Origin: Cellulophaga sp.
GTDB taxonomy: Bacteria > Bacteroidota > Bacteroidia > Flavobacteriales > Flavobacteriaceae
Length of the DNA stretch: 32,337 nucleotides
Direction of reading: 5' to 3'
Assembly (NCBI GenBank): GCA_030731855.1
Contig: JANQTG010000222.1
Coordinates: 40,784-73,120 of the forward strand
Shown here: piece after piece, positions 3,493 through 30,219 of the stretch
Layout: each line of letters begins with the position of its first letter
How positions within the stretch are numbered: position 1 is the first letter of the stretch
Notes under the pieces: generated by a model
What the model saw: only the letters and a program-made list of their open reading frames with translations
What the model was told of the DNA's origin: nothing
Database searches by the model: none
Program-made: the position numbers and the translations under genes

Positions 3493-3854
3493 ATTTGTAC
3501 GTATTTGGCAGTTCGCCTATTTCTAGGGTAAGATAGTAACAACCTCGTGAATAGCAAAAAAATAAAGCAAACTTATTTTTCAAAAGCAAAAAGAATTAAG
3601 AAACAAGAGAAAAAAATTAGAAGTATGAAATACAAAATTAGAAATACGAAGTTAGAAGTACGAAATTAGAAAAACGTACCTCCCTAATATTAGGTTGATC
3701 ACTTAGAAATGGGAAAAAAAATATGAATAAAAAAATCTGAAAGTTGATTTCTTAAATGAAGTACTACCAGTAAAAAACAATCAAGTAAAAAAATTATTAC
3801 ATTGTTAGATTAAATAATTTTTTCACCCAAAGCCCAAAACCCAGCACCCAAAAC
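3493..3854. other. Intergenic spacer with periodic tracts, between aroE and the DUF349 gene
   Basis: I see no gene here. The spacer holds a 7-nt-periodic A-rich tract (3617-3679), a 12-bp perfect palindrome CCTAATATTAGG (3683-3694), a plain AT-rich stretch, and a C-rich 7-nt-periodic tract that runs into the aroE stop codon. A possible minus-strand -7 box (TAAGTTTG, 3568-3575) lies 75 nt upstream of the DUF349 start with no clear -33 partner. Confidence 0.7.
3617..3679. repeat. Degenerate 7-nt-periodic tract, A-rich, 9 units
   Basis: Nine contiguous heptads follow the consensus TWNGAAR without any register slip. Two unit types alternate (TTAGAAR and TACGAAR), giving a secondary 14-nt period: 3638-3651 and 3652-3665 agree at 12 of 14 positions. 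The 16-mer at 3635-3650 recurs exactly at 17286-17301 in another spacer. Confidence 0.85.
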
Positions 3855-3859
3855 CTAAC
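3825..3859 (-). repeat. C-rich heptad tract over the aroE stop codon; G-quadruplex-type motif on the coding strand
   Basis: Five heptads of consensus RCCCARM/ACCTAAC run in register. On the coding (minus) strand this gives four GGG tracts exactly 7 nt apart (plus-strand CCC at 3826-3828, 3833-3835, 3840-3842 and 3847-3849) with 4-nt loops. The aroE TAG stop (3855-3857) lies inside the fifth unit. Confidence 0.85.
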
Positions 3860-17227: not shown

Positions 17228-17251
17228 TGTTGTTTAGTTTAAAAGTCTAAA

Positions 17252-17307
17252 GTATTAAGTATTAAGATGAAAAATACGAATTACGAAATTAGAAATACGA
17301 AAGTAGT
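17252..17307. repeat. Degenerate 7-nt-periodic tract, A-rich, 8 units
   Basis: Eight heptads in one register, starting with two identical GTATTAA units and followed by units such as AATACGA, ATTACGA and AATTAGA. It shares an exact 16-mer (17286-17301) with the tract at 3617-3679. Confidence 0.85.
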
Positions 17308-17320
17308 TTAGAAAATTATA

Positions 17321-17390
17321 TTAAGTACAAAGTCGAATGTCAAAGGTCAAAAATTTAGAACTACCCACTGCCCACTAGCGACTACCCTCT
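17321..17390 (-). repeat. 7-nt-periodic tract over the RNA methyltransferase stop codon, 10 units
   Basis: Ten heptads in register. Units 2-4 end in GTC and the last units end in ACT or TCT (for example ACCCACT, GCCCACT). The TAG stop codon (17375-17377) lies inside, so the last four or five codons of the gene are part of the tract. Confidence 0.85.
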
Positions 17391-18196
17391 ATTCCGCGCT
17401 GTCTTTTTGCTTCAAATATCAGAATTGCTGCCGAGACCGATACGTTCATCGAATCTATTTCGCCTTCCATAGGGATAATGATGTTTTGCGTGCTATTTTC
17501 AAGCCATTCTTGTGGCAAGCCAGTCGCTTCGGTGCCTACAACAATGGCGCTGGGGTTATTATAATCTATTTTTGTGTAGTTTTCTGATGCGGTGAGTGCA
17601 GCACAATAAATAGCAATTTTACGCTCTTTTAAAAAAGCAAGAACTTCTTCTGTAGTACCAATACCGATATTATTGGTAAAAACGCAACCGATGCTCGATC
17701 GGATAATATTTGGGTTGTATATATCGCCTTTTGGGTTCGCTATAATCACCGCATCTAAATTTGCAGCATCAGCAGTGCGTAATAAAGCGCCAAGATTACC
17801 TGGTTTTTCTGTGGTATCAGCTACTAAAATTAAGGGATTTTTATTTTTAAATTTTAAGTCAGATAATGCGTGCGATTTACTTTTGACTAGCGCAATAATC
17901 CCTTCAGTCGTTTCGCGATAAGCCATTTTTTGATAAACATCTTTAGACACTTTTATAAGTTCTATGTTTGATTTTTTACTGTCAATAATTTTTTCTAATT
18001 GATTAATTGGAATAATAGCTTCATTAAAAAAAATAGTTTTAATTTCATAATTGCCTTTTACAGCCAATTGAAATTCGCGCAGACCTTCTAAAACAAATTC
18101 TCCTGTTTTTTTGCGTTCACGAGATTTCTCCTTTAATACTAAAACCTTTTTAACTAATGGGTTTTGTACGCTGCTTATTTCTTTATAACGATTCAT
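17375..18196 (-). CDS. TrmH/SpoU-family RNA 2'-O-methyltransferase, 273 aa
   Basis: SAM-dependent methyltransferase with the SPOUT knot. An N-terminal substrate-binding part (RYKEISSVQNPLVKKVLVLKEKSRERKKTGEFVLEG, residues 3-38) resembles SpoU_sub_bind. Motif 1 is KPGNLGALLRTADAANLDAVI, motif 2 is VVGTEATGLPQEWL, and motif 3 is MNVSVSAAILIFEAKRQR near the end. All three are intact. Likely acts on rRNA or tRNA ribose; the exact nucleotide is not readable. The last codons (Glu-Gly-Ser-Arg-TAG) lie within a heptad tract, so the C-terminal few residues may not be ancestral. The neighbour on the other side is the divergent molybdenum-cofactor operon. Confidence 0.93.
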   Translation of the reverse strand: MNRYKEISSVQNPLVKKVLVLKEKSRERKKTGEFVLEGLREFQLAVKGNYEIKTIFFNEAIIPINQLEKIIDSKKSNIELIKVSKDVYQKMAYRETTEGIIALVKSKSHALSDLKFKNKNPLILVADTTEKPGNLGALLRTADAANLDAVIIANPKGDIYNPNIIRSSIGCVFTNNIGIGTTEEVLAFLKERKIAIYCAALTASENYTKIDYNNPSAIVVGTEATGLPQEWLENSTQNIIIPMEGEIDSMNVSVSAAILIFEAKRQRGIEGSR

Positions 18197-22137: not shown

Positions 22138-23430
22138 TTATTCTCCTTCATATTTCCCCATATACCGTTTCCAAAGCTCTGTTTGGTGCGTTTCTAAAGA
22201 AATGGATCTGCCATCAATATAGGCATGAGTTAAAATGTTGGTGCGCATATCTAAAGCATCGCCTTCGGATATAAATAAGGTAGCACTTTTGCCCATTTCT
22301 AAAGTGCCGTAATCAGCATCAATTCCTAAAATTTTAGCATTGTTACCCGTAATCATTTGTAAGGCTACTTCTTTATCTAAGCCTTGCCCTACTACCTGAC
22401 CCGCATAAAAAGGTAAGTTTCTAGTCTGAAAATTCGCTTTATCCGCATTTTGCATGCCCACTAAAAGTCCAGCATCGATTAATAATTTAGGATTTTTATA
22501 GGGTAAATCATAATCATCGTCTTCATGCTCAGGAATGGTATGTGTAAAGTTGGCTAATACTGGAATATTATGTTCTTTTAAGAAATCGGTAATTTTATAT
22601 GCTTCATAACCTCCAACGAGTACTATATCTTTAATATTATGTGCTTTGGCTAAAGTGATAGCATCTATAATTTCACGTTCACCATCCGTGTAAATGTAAA
22701 GTTTTTTAGACCCATCAAACAAACCTTGCATAGCTTTGAAGGCTAAATTTTCTTCTTTTGAAGCCGCTTTTCCATACGCAGCTGCATTTTTGATGAATAA
22801 ACTAATTTCATCTTGCTCTTCTTTGTACTTGTCATTAGGTTTAAAGCCGCGTTCTTCACCAGCCCACCAACGCCCTTGTCTAAATGCGCTTGGCCAATTC
22901 ATATGAATAGCATCATCAACTTTTAAAGCGGCATCTTCCCAATTCCAAGCATCGAACTGTACAATAGATGAGGTACCAGAAATACGACCGCCTTGTGGTG
23001 TTATTTGTCCAATTAAAATGCCATTAGGGCGCATACTTTCTATTACTTTAGATTCTGCATTATAGGCAATTAAACTTCGAACATGAGGTATCATTTCTCC
23101 AATTTCATCTTCATCTACACTGGCGCGTACCGCATCTACTTCTACCAAACCTAAAGATTTTGCAGGAGCAATAAAGCCTGGATAAATATGTTTTCCTGAC
23201 GCATTAATTACGTTACCACTGCGGGCAATTTTAGCATTCGCACTACCGATGAAGGTAATTTTGCCGTTTTCAAACATTAGAAGGGCATTTTCTATGACCT
23301 GCCCGTTTCCTAAATGCGCAGTAGCGCCTTCAATACTAACGGCTTCTTTCTGAATTGGCGCTGGCGTTTGTTGGGCAAAAACGATGCTCGCACTACAAAA
23401 CAATAGCAATGTATATAAGTATTTTTTCAT
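22138..23430 (-). CDS. Secreted amidohydrolase-family protein lacking the first metal motif, 430 aa
   Basis: Signal peptide at 1-20 (MKKYLYTLLLFCSASIVFAQ). A beta-sandwich start (GATAHLGNGQVIENALLMFENGKITFIG) and a C-terminal end (GTLEMGKSATLFISEGDALDM) are those of the amidohydrolase (imidazolonepropionase-like) superfamily. The strand-1 motif, normally PGxIDxHxH, here reads PGFIAPAKS (84-92), so both metal-binding histidines and the aspartate are gone. No CHSY, or NSDD-like motif is seen where later ligands would be. The protein is most like the N-terminal half of the larger protein encoded upstream, which has lost the same residues. It is probably a non-catalytic or altered-function paralogue, exported to the periplasm or surface. 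Normal codon use and an intact frame argue that it is kept by selection. Confidence 0.85.
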   Translation of the reverse strand: MKKYLYTLLLFCSASIVFAQQTPAPIQKEAVSIEGATAHLGNGQVIENALLMFENGKITFIGSANAKIARSGNVINASGKHIYPGFIAPAKSLGLVEVDAVRASVDEDEIGEMIPHVRSLIAYNAESKVIESMRPNGILIGQITPQGGRISGTSSIVQFDAWNWEDAALKVDDAIHMNWPSAFRQGRWWAGEERGFKPNDKYKEEQDEISLFIKNAAAYGKAASKEENLAFKAMQGLFDGSKKLYIYTDGEREIIDAITLAKAHNIKDIVLVGGYEAYKITDFLKEHNIPVLANFTHTIPEHEDDDYDLPYKNPKLLIDAGLLVGMQNADKANFQTRNLPFYAGQVVGQGLDKEVALQMITGNNAKILGIDADYGTLEMGKSATLFISEGDALDMRTNILTHAYIDGRSISLETHQTELWKRYMGKYEGE

Positions 23431-23449
23431 TTTTTATGGCTTTTTAATT

Positions 23450-23519
23450 AGCTATATGCTTTAGGCTGTATGCCGTAAGCTATTTTATAAATTCTCTATT
23501 CTCTATTCTTTTCTCTTTT
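23450..23519. repeat. 7-nt-periodic tract, T-rich, 10 units
   Basis: Ten contiguous heptads without slip. The first five follow NGCTNTA-like units (AGCTATA, TGCTTTA, GGCTGTA); the last four are TTCTCTA (twice), TTCTTTT and CTCTTTT. By hand count consecutive units agree at 42 of 63 positions. Confidence 0.9.
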
Positions 23520-23531
23520 TTGTAACCACTC

Positions 23532-23555
23532 TTGCACTGAGCGGAGTAGAAGTGA
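23532..23555. repeat. Candidate dispersed element with CACTGAGCG core
   Basis: The stretch containing GCACTGAGCGGAGTAGAAG is much richer in G+C than the AT-rich sequence around it. Its core (CACTGAGCG) recurs in opposite orientation at 30362-30370 (CGCTCAGTG), again just after a stop codon. From memory, similar words are frequent in other flavobacterial spacers; I cannot verify this here. Confidence 0.5.
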
Positions 23556-23590
23556 ACTACTAGTCACTAACTCCTAACTACTAATTACTA
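23556..23590 (-). repeat. 7-nt-periodic tract NNNACTA over the stop codon of the large amidohydrolase
   Basis: Five heptads in register ending in CTA: ACTACTA, GTCACTA, ACTCCTA, ACTACTA, ATTACTA. On the coding strand every unit begins with TAG. The gene's TAG stop (23581-23583) is one of them, and the units place TAG in all three frames. Confidence 0.9.
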
Positions 23591-26544
23591 TAGGTATTAC
23601 TATCACAATGAAACTCTTCCTTATCTTTTTTCATTGGTTTTTGAGTCGGTTTTCCGCCTTCTTTTTCCGTCAACATCATGTTAATTAAGGTGTTGCGTTC
23701 ATTAATAATGGCTTCTCTTTTTATTTTATCTTTATCCATATCAAAATAAACAGCACCATCAATCATTGTTTTTTCTGCATTAGCATAAATTGATAAAGGG
23801 TGGTCTGACCAAAGTACTAAATCAGCATCTTTACCTTCTTTTACGCTACCAGTTCTATCATCAATATGTAATAATTTAGCAGGATTCAAAGTCACCATTT
23901 TCCAAGCTTCTTCCTCAGAAACTCCTCCATATTTTACAATTTTTCCAGCTTCTTGGTTTAGTCTTCTAGACATTTCGCGATCATCACTATTAATAGCTAC
24001 CGTAACTCCTTGACTGTGCATAATGGCAGCATTGTAAGGTATGGCATCATTTACTTCGTATTTGTAAGCCCACCAATCGCTAAACGTTGAACCGCCAACA
24101 CCGTGCTCCGCCATTTTATCAGCTACTTTGTACCCTTCTAAAATATGGGTAAAAGTGTTTACTTTAAAGTTAAAATCATCGGCAACTTTCATGAGCATAT
24201 TAATTTCGCTTTGCACATAAGAGTGGCAGCTGATATAACGCTCTCCATTTAAAATTTCTGCCAATACTTCCATTTCTTGATCATAACGGAATGGTTTTCC
24301 ACTTTTCTTTACTAAGTCGTATTCTTTGGCTCTTTGAAAGTAGTTGATAAATACTTGTTCTACACCCATTCTAGTCTGTGGAAAACGACTAAAACTACCC
24401 CAGTTCGATTGTTTTACGTTTTCACCGAGTGCAAATTTTATAAATTTAGGAGAGTTGTTGTAAATCATTTTATCTGCGGTTTCACCCCATTTTAATTTTA
24501 TAATGGCCGATTGTCCACCAATAGGGTTTGCAGAACCGTGTAATAATTGCGCTGAGGTTACCCCACCAGCCAAATTACGATAAATGTTCATGTCTTCGTC
24601 ATCCACTACATCTTCCATGGTTACTTCCGCTGACGAATTTTGTCCGCCTTCATTTACCGATTTTAAGGCAATATGGGTATGTTCATCAATGATACCCGCG
24701 GTTAGATGTTTTCCTGTAGCATCTACTACTTTTGCTCCACTTGCACTTAGGTTTGTACCTATTTTACTAATTTTTCCGTTTTTAACCAGTACATCAGTAT
24801 TTTTTAATACTCCAGCAGTTTCTCCTGTCCAAACTGTTGCATTTTTAAATAAAATGGTTTCTTGCGTTGGTTTTGAGGCATTTCCGTAACCTATATTGGG
24901 GTAGGTAACAGGCATTATTTTTGGTGCTTCAGCAGTTTTTTCTTCTTTATCTTTTTCCGAAAAGCTTTTTGTTTTGGTGGCTTTGAAAGATGATTCTCTT
25001 CCGTTTGGTAGCATTAACCTCCCTGAAATATCATCAGAAGTTTTAGCCGCCATGCCAGTCATACGATATATTTTTTCGCCTTCATCTGTAGAGAAAGATA
25101 AATCTAACCAATTATCAGAATAGCTTATTTTAGATTTTAGTTTTAAGGTATCTTGTTTTACTTCTACTTTGGGCTTACTTAAATCTCCTGTAATGGCTAA
25201 TTGATACGAGTTTTCGCCTGCTATTAAATTATAATCACCACGAATATCTTTTACGGTTATGTCATTAACGATAGTTTTATTGCCTTGAACCCAATTCTCG
25301 AATAGCGTAGTGCTTTTATTAAAAATAGGCCCTGAAGTTATTAAAAAGTTTGCATAGCTACCGACTTGCAAAGACCCTATTTGGGCGCTTTTTCCTAGAA
25401 TTTGAGCCGGAATGGTAGTTAGTGCTTCTAAAGCTTTTGTTTCTGAAAGTCCATATGTGATTGCTTTTAATAAATTTTCTTTGAATTTAGCCGCAGACTT
25501 CGCATCGTGCATAGTGAAAGAAAATGTAATTCCGTTATCTACCATAGCTTTCGGGTTACTTGGGGCTTGGTTCCAGTATCTCATATCTTCTAAAGATACA
25601 TAACCGGCTTGGTACGGATTAGAAACATCATAAGCGTCAGGGAAGTTTAGAGGCAGAATAAAGGAAGCATTTGTTGCTTTCATATCTTGAATATTTTCAT
25701 ATTCATCTCCACCAGCTACTAGTACATATTGTATAGCATTAGCATCTCCGATTTTATCGGCTAATAATACATTTCCTTTATCTTTTGCTTCAAAAATTTG
25801 TACCATACTTTTATTGGCTATTAAAGCTTCTAAAGAGCGGTCTTTCGTATCTGATTTTCCTTGGGCATACCAATTCATATCACTATACATTTGTCGCAAT
25901 AAGGCGGTAGTTCCCATTAAAGAACTTGGGTAAGCCTGATTGGATAGAACACTGCGTTCTAGCGAGAAATATTGTGCAGATTTGCCATCTATAACACGTG
26001 TTGCATCACTAGCATCGCTATTTAAAGTGATTAATGAGCCTGTACCACGTGCAATACCATCTTGTAAATGTGTATTTACAACTCCAAAACCAGCTTCACG
26101 AAGTTCTTTAGCTTTTTTGTCATCGTATTTAAAGCTTGTTAAGGCATTCATTTCTGGCATAACATGATCGTTCCAATAAAAACCTTCTCGAGAAGGTTCA
26201 TACTGTGTAGTTCTGCCTGATCCAGAGGGTCTTTTTGGTTTTTCTAAACCAAAATCAGAATAAATATCGATAAAAGAAGGATAGATAGATTTTCCACTAA
26301 CATCTATAGTTACTGTGTTTTTAGGAAGTGTTACCGATGTACCAACTTGTACAATTTTTCCGTTTTGGATCAGTAGCGTTCCGTTTTCGATAATTTGAGT
26401 AGGAGTTACAAATATTTTACCATTTGTAAGTGCCGTGTAATTGTTGTTTTTTGATTTTACCCCATCGTTTTTAGGGAAATACTCTTGTGCAAACACAAGA
26501 CTGCTACCCCATAAAAGGGTGAGCACGAGTAGTCTCATTTTCAT
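23581..26544 (-). CDS. Secreted double-domain amidohydrolase, 987 aa, first domain degenerate
   Basis: Signal peptide at 1-20 (ends SSLVFAQ). Two amidohydrolase modules are joined by a linker of about 130 residues. Module 1 (about 35-430) has YPSFIDIYSDFGL (88-100) in place of the HxH motif and looks catalytically dead. The linker (about 430-560) carries a beta-rich segment (MTGMAAKTSDDISGRLMLP). Module 2 (about 562-935) has IIDEHTHIALKS with H622 and H624, CHSY (H774), FTH (H800) and INSDDREMS (D854), so its metal site appears intact. A Lys/Glu-rich tail follows. The family cleaves cyclic amides or peptides; the substrate is unknown. Start could be Met3. The smaller paralogue lies 150 bp downstream on the same strand, likely co-transcribed. 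The last codons are part of a heptad tract. Confidence 0.88.
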   Translation of the reverse strand: MKMRLLVLTLLWGSSLVFAQEYFPKNDGVKSKNNNYTALTNGKIFVTPTQIIENGTLLIQNGKIVQVGTSVTLPKNTVTIDVSGKSIYPSFIDIYSDFGLEKPKRPSGSGRTTQYEPSREGFYWNDHVMPEMNALTSFKYDDKKAKELREAGFGVVNTHLQDGIARGTGSLITLNSDASDATRVIDGKSAQYFSLERSVLSNQAYPSSLMGTTALLRQMYSDMNWYAQGKSDTKDRSLEALIANKSMVQIFEAKDKGNVLLADKIGDANAIQYVLVAGGDEYENIQDMKATNASFILPLNFPDAYDVSNPYQAGYVSLEDMRYWNQAPSNPKAMVDNGITFSFTMHDAKSAAKFKENLLKAITYGLSETKALEALTTIPAQILGKSAQIGSLQVGSYANFLITSGPIFNKSTTLFENWVQGNKTIVNDITVKDIRGDYNLIAGENSYQLAITGDLSKPKVEVKQDTLKLKSKISYSDNWLDLSFSTDEGEKIYRMTGMAAKTSDDISGRLMLPNGRESSFKATKTKSFSEKDKEEKTAEAPKIMPVTYPNIGYGNASKPTQETILFKNATVWTGETAGVLKNTDVLVKNGKISKIGTNLSASGAKVVDATGKHLTAGIIDEHTHIALKSVNEGGQNSSAEVTMEDVVDDEDMNIYRNLAGGVTSAQLLHGSANPIGGQSAIIKLKWGETADKMIYNNSPKFIKFALGENVKQSNWGSFSRFPQTRMGVEQVFINYFQRAKEYDLVKKSGKPFRYDQEMEVLAEILNGERYISCHSYVQSEINMLMKVADDFNFKVNTFTHILEGYKVADKMAEHGVGGSTFSDWWAYKYEVNDAIPYNAAIMHSQGVTVAINSDDREMSRRLNQEAGKIVKYGGVSEEEAWKMVTLNPAKLLHIDDRTGSVKEGKDADLVLWSDHPLSIYANAEKTMIDGAVYFDMDKDKIKREAIINERNTLINMMLTEKEGGKPTQKPMKKDKEEFHCDSNTYSN

Positions 26545-29451: not shown

Positions 29452-30219
29452 ATGAAAAAAGTTTTTTTAGTTTTAGTACTTGTATTTACAACAGTTAGTT
29501 TACAAGCCCAATTAGGTAAAGTTTTGAAAAAAGGAAATATTGATGCTGGTAAAAAGTTAGTAAAGGCAGCAACACTTTCTGATGAAGATATGGCAGCACT
29601 TTCTTTAGAATCTGTTCAATGGATGGATGAAAACAACCCAATTGCAGGCGAAGATGACCCATACGGAGCGCGTTTGGCGAGGTTAGTGGCAGATTTTGAG
29701 GAAGAAGACGGCTTAAAATTAAATTTTAAAGTATATTCAGTAGTAGATATTAACGCTTTTGCAACACCTGACGGAAGTGTTAGAGTAATGGCGGGTTTAA
29801 TGGATTTAATGACTGATGATGAGTTGTTAAGCGTAATTGGTCACGAAATAGGACATGTTAAACTAGGCCATTCAAAAGAACGTTATAGAGCGGCTTACAA
29901 AATTTCGGCAGCAAAAGATTTAGCGGTTGCCAACACCAACGCAGGTAAAGTTTTAGCGGATGACGAAATAGGCGGTTTTATGGAAAATATGTTAAATGCA
30001 CAATTTTCTCAAACAAACGAATCTGAATCTGATGAATATGGGTTTGATTTTTTGGTAAAGCATAATTTAAATTATCATGCTATGGAAGGTGCATTCCAAA
30101 AATTAGCAGATTTAAGTAGCGATGGCGGAAAAAGTTCGTTAATGTCTTCACATCCTGGTGCTGCAAAACGTTCAGAAAAAGCAAAAGAGCGCGCTGAAAA
30201 GCAAGATGCTAAAAACTAA
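29452..30219 (+). CDS. Secreted M48-family metalloprotease, 255 aa
   Basis: Signal peptide at 1-19 (MKKVFLVLVLVFTTVSLQAQ). A peptidase M48 domain follows, with FATPDGSVRVMAGLMDLM (103-120), the zinc motif IGHEIGHVKLGH (HEIGH 131-135) and the third ligand E192 in ESESDEYGFDFL. SSHPGAAKRSEKA near the end is the conserved SHP region. It resembles periplasmic LoiP/YggG-type proteases but has no lipobox cysteine, so it is probably soluble in the periplasm. The C-terminus is Lys/Glu-rich. It is the second M48 protein in the window; unlike the first it has no membrane helices. Its stop codon is followed directly by a heptad tract and then a terminator. Confidence 0.92.
   Translation: MKKVFLVLVLVFTTVSLQAQLGKVLKKGNIDAGKKLVKAATLSDEDMAALSLESVQWMDENNPIAGEDDPYGARLARLVADFEEEDGLKLNFKVYSVVDINAFATPDGSVRVMAGLMDLMTDDELLSVIGHEIGHVKLGHSKERYRAAYKISAAKDLAVANTNAGKVLADDEIGGFMENMLNAQFSQTNESESDEYGFDFLVKHNLNYHAMEGAFQKLADLSSDGGKSSLMSSHPGAAKRSEKAKERAEKQDAKN

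Follow-up and report, generated by a model that had tools for sequence, protein, structure and literature searches.

A run of ten heptamers in an intergenic spacer of a Cellulophaga genome probably represents two abutting arrays of different age, which would have grown by slippage in steps of 7 nt, with selection acting on them at gene ends. The run lies in a window of 32,337 nucleotides, the whole stretch of DNA analysed here, which is part of contig C222 of a 3.8-Mb draft genome (G000). The architecture, the orthology, one clear whole-unit length change and the polarity are observed directly. We infer slippage as the motor and selection as the filter, a reading that we hold slightly less firmly than at first, because two of the three whole-unit changes seen between relatives rest on an alignment restricted in its gaps.

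Location and composition of the tract

The heptamers sit in a 150-nt spacer (23431–23580) between two co-directional genes called as reading frames on the minus strand, an upstream gene of 987 aa (23581–26544) and a downstream gene of 430 aa (22138–23430). From our own look at the proteins, rather than from a family library, we take both products to be putative amidohydrolase-like proteins. By the 430-aa gene, the nearest named relatives are Cellulophaga species, at 77–80% identity. A tRNA search of the window found none, and comparison of the window with Rfam gave 0 matches above the gathering score.

Read on the plus strand, the spacer begins with an 8-nt leader (23431–23438; minus-strand mRNA CATAAAAA, immediately 5' of the ATG), which is identical in the nearest congener, G014. 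GC and TTTTTAATTA then make up the 12 nt (23439–23450) that lead to the array we regard as older, five units of the GCYNTAN type at 23451–23485 (GCTATAT, GCTTTAG, GCTGTAT, GCCGTAA and GCTATTT), which on the mRNA (minus) strand read NTANRGC and point to the ATG of the 430-aa gene. An intermediate unit, TATAAAT (23486–23492), separates it from the presumed younger array at 23493–23520 (plus strand; TCTCTAT, TCTCTAT, TCTTTTC and TCTTTTT). Beyond these lie an imperfect palindrome, CACTGAGCGGAGTAGAAGTG (23535–23554), which is a distinct genome-wide repeat, and a second heptamer tract of the AACTACT type (23555–23590, plus strand) that overlaps the 987-aa gene at its 3' end. Searched as CTGAGCGNAGTNGAAG, the palindrome has 56 matches in the genome at one mismatch or fewer, against 0 for the reversed control, and several copies lie between heptamer tracts, frequently as ACTCTTGCA-CTGAGCG. 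The window holds further heptamer tracts at 3582–3672, 3826–3858, 17242–17302 and 17323–17391, of the GAAATAC, ACCCAAA, AAGTATT and ACTACCC types.

In the frame used by an earlier sequence-only reading of the window, positions 23450–23519 divide into AGCTATA, TGCTTTA, GGCTGTA, TGCCGTA, AGCTATT, TTATAAA, TTCTCTA, TTCTCTA, TTCTTTT and CTCTTTT. The ten units in unbroken register that it described are present in the sequence, and the forms it gave them (NGCTNTA or NGCCGTA, then TTCTCTA or TTCTTTT) hold in general, the departures being the fifth unit, AGCTATT, and the tenth, CTCTTTT. Identity over 23444–23519 is 0.605 at lag 7 and 0.539 at lag 14, against 0.408 at the best lag that is not a multiple of 7, and the spacer has a lag-7 run score of 22, which no dinucleotide shuffle out of 5000 attained at lags 4 to 14; the tract is therefore not a product of chance. 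Taken separately, the first half (23437–23485) was matched at lag 7 by 6 of 5000 shuffles (31 when any lag is allowed), and the second part (23486–23520) by 0 (10 when any lag is allowed). The change of sequence type midway exists and was overstated: NGCTNTA and TTCTCTA are alike at C3, T4, T6 and A7, and a single fixed column differs (G to T, that is, GCYNTAN to TCTCTAT). The profiles of the two halves agree best in phase, where their similarity is 3.85/7 (the runner-up offset gives 2.75); of 5040 column permutations, 48 reach the in-phase value. The register across the switch is definable solely through the columns that both types have in common.

Orthologous spacers and the two histories

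The closest relative available for comparison, G014, shares 89% identity in the downstream protein and has an orthologous spacer of 130 nt. When the two spacers are paired by eye (automatic alignment pairs them otherwise), the five GCYNTAN units align one for one and in the same place, the G000/G014 pairs being GCTATAT/GCTTTAC, GCTTTAG/GCTTTAG, GCTGTAT/GCGCTAT, GCCGTAA/GCCTTAA and GCTATTT/ACTATTT. The G014 spacer holds an extra 42 nt, exactly six units, from AAAAAGC to the pre-ATG CATAAAAA, which G000 lacks. TTCTCTA was not found in the orthologous spacer of G014, and TTCTCTATTCTCTATTCT, at one mismatch or fewer, has 0 matches anywhere in that genome, compared with 8 in G000, seven of them in contig C62 and one at the tract itself. 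From the GC before TTTTTAAT to the first array unit there are 12 nt in G000 and 17 nt in G014, so that a 5-nt change has occurred next to the units and the register is broken inside the spacer.

The older array would thus predate the split from G014 and would since have been altered by point substitutions and by entire 7-nt units being added or dropped. The TTCTCTA array, the younger one, was most likely gained in the G000 lineage, from or beside AT-rich sequence (or else lost in G014), and may be in phase with its neighbour by chance (1 in 7) or by descent. The sequence-only reading named, as the outcome that would count against it, halves of separate origin whose common phase is accidental; the separate origin is borne out, GCYNTAN being present in G014 and TTCTCTA not, and the accident of phase is one of these two possibilities.

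A survey of the spacer across 18 genomes of the genus, one of them without a match at E 1e-100 and with a paralog in G014 set aside, gave 17 orthologous loci, our own included. The array occurs in two only (150 and 130 nt); four other spacers are 99–106 nt long and free of GCYNTAN arrays, one is 62 nt, nine are 10–30 nt, and at one locus the genes overlap according to the reading-frame call. A function of the array in this operon is unlikely, because 15 of the 17 sampled spacers do without it.

Elsewhere in the window, the spacer at 17228–17374 has a shorter G014 ortholog with no tract (lag-7 score 2 there, 22 here). The spacer at 3493–3854 also has a shorter ortholog, which in automatic alignment is free of GAAATAC units, a less clean case in that the A-rich G014 spacer still scores 15 at lag 7 against 22. 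A 255-aa reading frame at 29452–30219 is absent from the otherwise syntenic stretch of G014. In two further orthologous pairs, L235/L222 and L242/L221, the best alignment has single units gained or lost, under a scheme that permits whole-unit gaps only and that leaves a 2-nt remainder in L242/L221. Whole-unit length change between relatives is hence clear in one alignment, that of the 42 nt, and suggested by these two, and changes that are not multiples of 7 occur as well (5 nt in this spacer, 2 nt in L242/L221). Among 38 aligned units of orthologous arrays, columns 4 and 7 differ in 23 of 76 cells and the other five columns in 20 of 190, an excess that is only suggestive, because the search pattern behind the majority of these arrays fixes the other columns and leaves columns 4 and 7 open, and because the count took in two flanking non-array units of L233.

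Heptamer arrays as a class

The interpretation in the sequence-only reading is partly supported, in that period 7 is special and general, on the strength both of the 42-nt, six-unit difference and of the excess of such tracts in the genome. In 429 kb of G000 with 245 spacers there are 37 period-7 tracts at a threshold of 12, against 2.1 expected (the average over ten Markov resamplings); periods 4 to 13 other than 7 give 0 to 7 tracts, and period 14 gives 23. The corresponding counts for period 7 are 13 against 1.0 in 400 kb of G014 and 28 against 2.3 in 80 loci of other Flavobacteriaceae, in which periods 6 (10 against 1.5) and 12 (7 against 2.5) are likewise in excess. In a further 310 kb of G000, the raw counts were 22 tracts of period 7 and 12 of period 8.

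The units themselves recur. Within G000, 26 of 51 tracts have a consensus unit that is also found elsewhere in the same sample, where shuffled units would give 11.2. The query GCTNTANGCYNTANGC has 47 matches in G000 against 1 for its reversed control, and occurs in 17 of 40 genomes and in 135 of 299 genomes of the family (our own included each time), yet only 13 of the 299 have at least 13 matches, a patchy spread. In genome G266 the reversed control of GCTNTANGCYNTANGC itself has 49 matches, other units being expanded elsewhere. Pattern-defined arrays are intergenic apart from 4 of 48 that fall within reading frames, and 1 is at a contig edge. TTCTCTA arrays recur in 6 of 99 other genomes and at C62 of G000, where 62 nt of perfect period 7 (L266, 5844–5905; 8.9 copies) reach the contig end; arrays of this type may break assembly. 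In G055 the reversed control of TTCTCTA has 21 matches, and other heptamer units are expanded there.

Polarity relative to genes

The GCYNTAN array in our spacer is a start-side member of its class, and nearly all sampled near-gene arrays of the class share one orientation relative to the gene. In the discovery sets the GC end pointed to the nearest gene in 13 of 19 arrays of G000 (p 0.17) and in 19 of 24 of G014 (p 0.007), and 30 of the 38 arrays with a clear asymmetry conformed. A second set, drawn from 18 other genomes of 16 genera with one congener among them, contained 80 arrays, of which 63 had their GC end towards the gene beside them; the arrays are not all independent, some loci being possible orthologs (G130/G340 and G059/G309 share a genus). 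Where an array was both near a gene and clearly nearer to it, the count was 45 of 45, under a definition (one gene within 40 nt, and the opposite gene farther off by 20 nt or more) that was set after the discovery set had been seen, in the same script as the second-set result. The arrays that break the polarity lie mostly mid-way in long spacers. Across G000, G014 and the further loci, array ends at most 25 nt from a gene are GC ends in 73 cases and the other end in 5, all five being arrays that fill a short spacer, with their GC end also towards the opposite gene.

Distances to the genes are likewise structured. Start-side arrays stand 8–10 nt from the ATG in 20 of 32 cases, and on the stop side the distance after the stop codon is 0 modulo 7 in 13 of 41, against 5.9 expected. 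A frequent arrangement is a facing pair: stop codon, GCYNTAN units, a short middle, NTANRGC units, 8–10 nt and ATG. In G014, three copies of such a pair (L217, L219 and L226) occupy extended regions where no reading frame was called, and these may adjoin rRNA operons. Tabulated by column, 146 units from the stop side and 136 from the start side give a consensus of GCTNTAN with no run of three G. On the mRNA strand, column 4 is often a purine on both sides, in 101 of 146 stop-side units and in 86 of 136 start-side units, the latter being read on the opposite strand.

A broader rule for heptamers of any type, with G over C on the mRNA strand after stops and the reverse before starts, was also considered. 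With ties left out, G exceeds C after stops in 55 cases against 10 (11 against 1 in a further sample), and C exceeds G before starts in 37 against 18 (9 against 6), a weak preference; between divergent genes the rule fails (3 against 6, with 4 ties). Spacers free of tracts lean slightly the same way as the G-over-C rule (618 against 501). We do not retain the rule for all heptamer types, given its weakness before starts and its failure between divergent genes.

Origin of the arrays

Both arrays fall into a class of degenerate heptamer arrays that extends across the family. Members of this class most likely expand through replication slippage or unequal exchange that strongly favours 7-nt steps, and their placement may be filtered by selection at gene ends that keeps the 8–10 nt before the ATG free and the GC end of the unit towards the gene. 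Plain slippage does not account for everything: instead of a unit random to each locus, identical ones turn up at numerous loci and across numerous genera, so something seeds or selects units. Slippage alone also does not predict the bias of orthologous differences to columns 4 and 7, and the length changes of 5 and 2 nt speak against strictly 7-nt steps.

The sequence-only reading saw in the tract its clearest example of a length-counting process, in which the period is conserved independently of the sequence. Such a process, for instance an enzyme adding 7-nt units at low sequence fidelity so that the phase outlives a change of unit, would fit the prominence of period 7 in three samples and the stop-codon distances noted above; if 7 were counted regardless of sequence, unlike neighbouring arrays should be in phase. 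When other switches of type without change of phase were sought, as had been proposed, only 4 of 17 unlike pairs of neighbouring sub-arrays (gap of at most 20 nt; 14 from the first sample and 3 from a further one) were in phase, against 2.4 expected, the two like pairs, counted apart, both being so. These four, the present tract, two in L183 and one in L093, all have a similarity of at least 4.25/7, which could be taken in favour of counting, but a pair in L257 from the further sample is similar at 4.33 and out of phase, and the threshold for 'similar', about 4.2, was chosen after the data had been seen. The register is mostly kept for related units and not for unlike ones, as slippage with substitution gives. 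With the 5-nt difference inside the spacer and halves that differ in age, we regard true length counting as improbable; at this tract divergence and unit-wise slippage are enough, and the tract does not serve as an example of a period that outlasts its sequence, its halves having different histories and unlike types being near chance in phase.

It is about as doubtful that the arrays act as the arms of an intercistronic RNA hairpin in the operon mRNA. Twelve facing pairs from short co-directional spacers (with L292, L297, L322, L337 and the L217 group left out, and with L184 and L225 orthologs of each other) all fold with negative z, mean −2.45 and seven below −2, but bases at columns 4 and 7 match less often within a locus (0.51) than between loci (0.61), with 1961 of 2000 permutations reaching the observed value, and the purine preference at column 4 on both sides works against perfect stems. 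Co-directional spacers that bear tracts have, moreover, a less negative mean z than tract-free ones, both in G000 (−0.76, n=12, against −1.90, n=66) and in G014 (−0.80, n=8, against −1.27, n=66), and our own spacer is without a facing GCYNTAN arm and has a z between −0.7 and −1.0. In general, the folding of tract-bearing spacers does not clearly exceed that of shuffles. As a general function, we reject the hairpin on these z-scores and on the lack of covariation between arms. A role in ending translation downstream of a gene in every frame, with stop codons furnished by the arrays (7 is 1 modulo 3, and the unit carries TAN), is highly improbable: stop-side tracts do hold 320 sense against 207 antisense stop trinucleotides in 3488 nt (2002 against 2016 in 29700 nt of tract-free spacers), but start-side tracts show some excess too (245 against 205 in 2789 nt), A or G at column 7 is not clearly commoner on the stop side (105 of 146 against 86 of 136, p 0.13), and start-side arrays such as ours would be left unexplained. 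We give equally little credence to protein binding with one heptamer per subunit, by a protein of the cold-shock type or similar, an option that MacGregor considered for the TAACTGA repeats (PMC4679880, in the part that treats them). A degenerate unit with fixed and free columns beside start codons would suit it, but start and stop sides have opposite polarity, which leaves any one RNA strand with different motifs at the two, and the array is missing from most sampled congeners at the orthologous spacer. A more speculative alternative, which we also think unlikely, is a process independent of G-quadruplexes and common to distant phyla that builds up 7-nt units in one direction, starting at gene ends and proceeding into the spacer. 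The G-bearing strand on each side runs 5' to 3' into the spacer, and units might be added to two facing 3' ends at a break or gap, in a telomere-like manner with an error-prone 7-nt template; if true, this would account for the polarity, for a period that is fixed while some columns are free, and for facing pairs whose arms do not covary. Slippage with selection at gene ends remains our preferred reading.

Relation to known heptamer repeats

The cyanobacterial STRR heptamers are a known class of heptamer repeats. Heptamers are over-represented among bacterial simple repeats, and among long simple sequence repeats they are the most abundant, the latter a result of Mrazek et al. 2007, both as told in PMC4679880 and PMC4692102. 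These repeats show, as far as those accounts go, the same excess of 7-nt units, with slippage proposed, and are described there as simple, in contrast to the degenerate arrays with fixed and free columns reported here.

On the description in the sections of Rehm et al. 2015 that deal with them (PMC4692102), the nearest known parallel is the class of G-rich heptamers in Xanthomonas, (GGGANTN)n, and Nostoc, GGGGA(C/T)T. Those repeats, as presented there, form facing pairs (70 and 75 cases), lie near genes on the non-coding strand upstream and the coding strand downstream, and vary in length and sequence among close species. The arrays here resemble them, on that account, as intergenic tandem 7-mers with two free columns, facing pairs and proximity to genes, and GCYNTAN shares their polarity, with the G strand non-coding upstream and coding downstream. 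Differences from that description are the host family, Flavobacteriaceae, the 8–10 nt spacing of start-side arrays from the ATG, and the lack of runs of three G in GCYNTAN and the other types, for which a G-quadruplex is not expected.

MacGregor 2015 (PMC4679880) reports, in the portion concerned with their distribution, TAACTGA heptamer repeats in Beggiatoaceae, Cyanobacteria and a few Bacteroidetes, with 2–6 copies in the Beggiatoaceae strain and up to 43 elsewhere; in F. litoralis, 12 of 14 sets are forward, 1–43 nt before a start, and one set after a stop is reversed. The likeness, within that portion, extends to intergenic position, to some Bacteroidetes, flavobacteria included, with mixed heptamers in their spacers, and to relatives with shorter, repeat-free spacers. 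The TAACTGA system as described there has one exact unit, whereas the arrays here are built of several types of degenerate unit; TAACTGA is absent among the consensus units of our 113 tracts. In a non-exhaustive search of open-licence literature we found no paper on the GCYNTAN unit or on the polarity of flavobacterial heptamers, and GAGCGTAGTCGAAG, used as a query there, returned none.

Runs of three G are missing from the GCYNTAN unit, so the polarity cannot be due in general to G-quadruplexes. A polar, degenerate family without such runs, patchily spread in the Flavobacteriaceae, means that polarity need not stem from G-quadruplexes, and the 13 genomes (of 299 sampled) in which one unit is abundant are natural replicates for timing the gain of single units.
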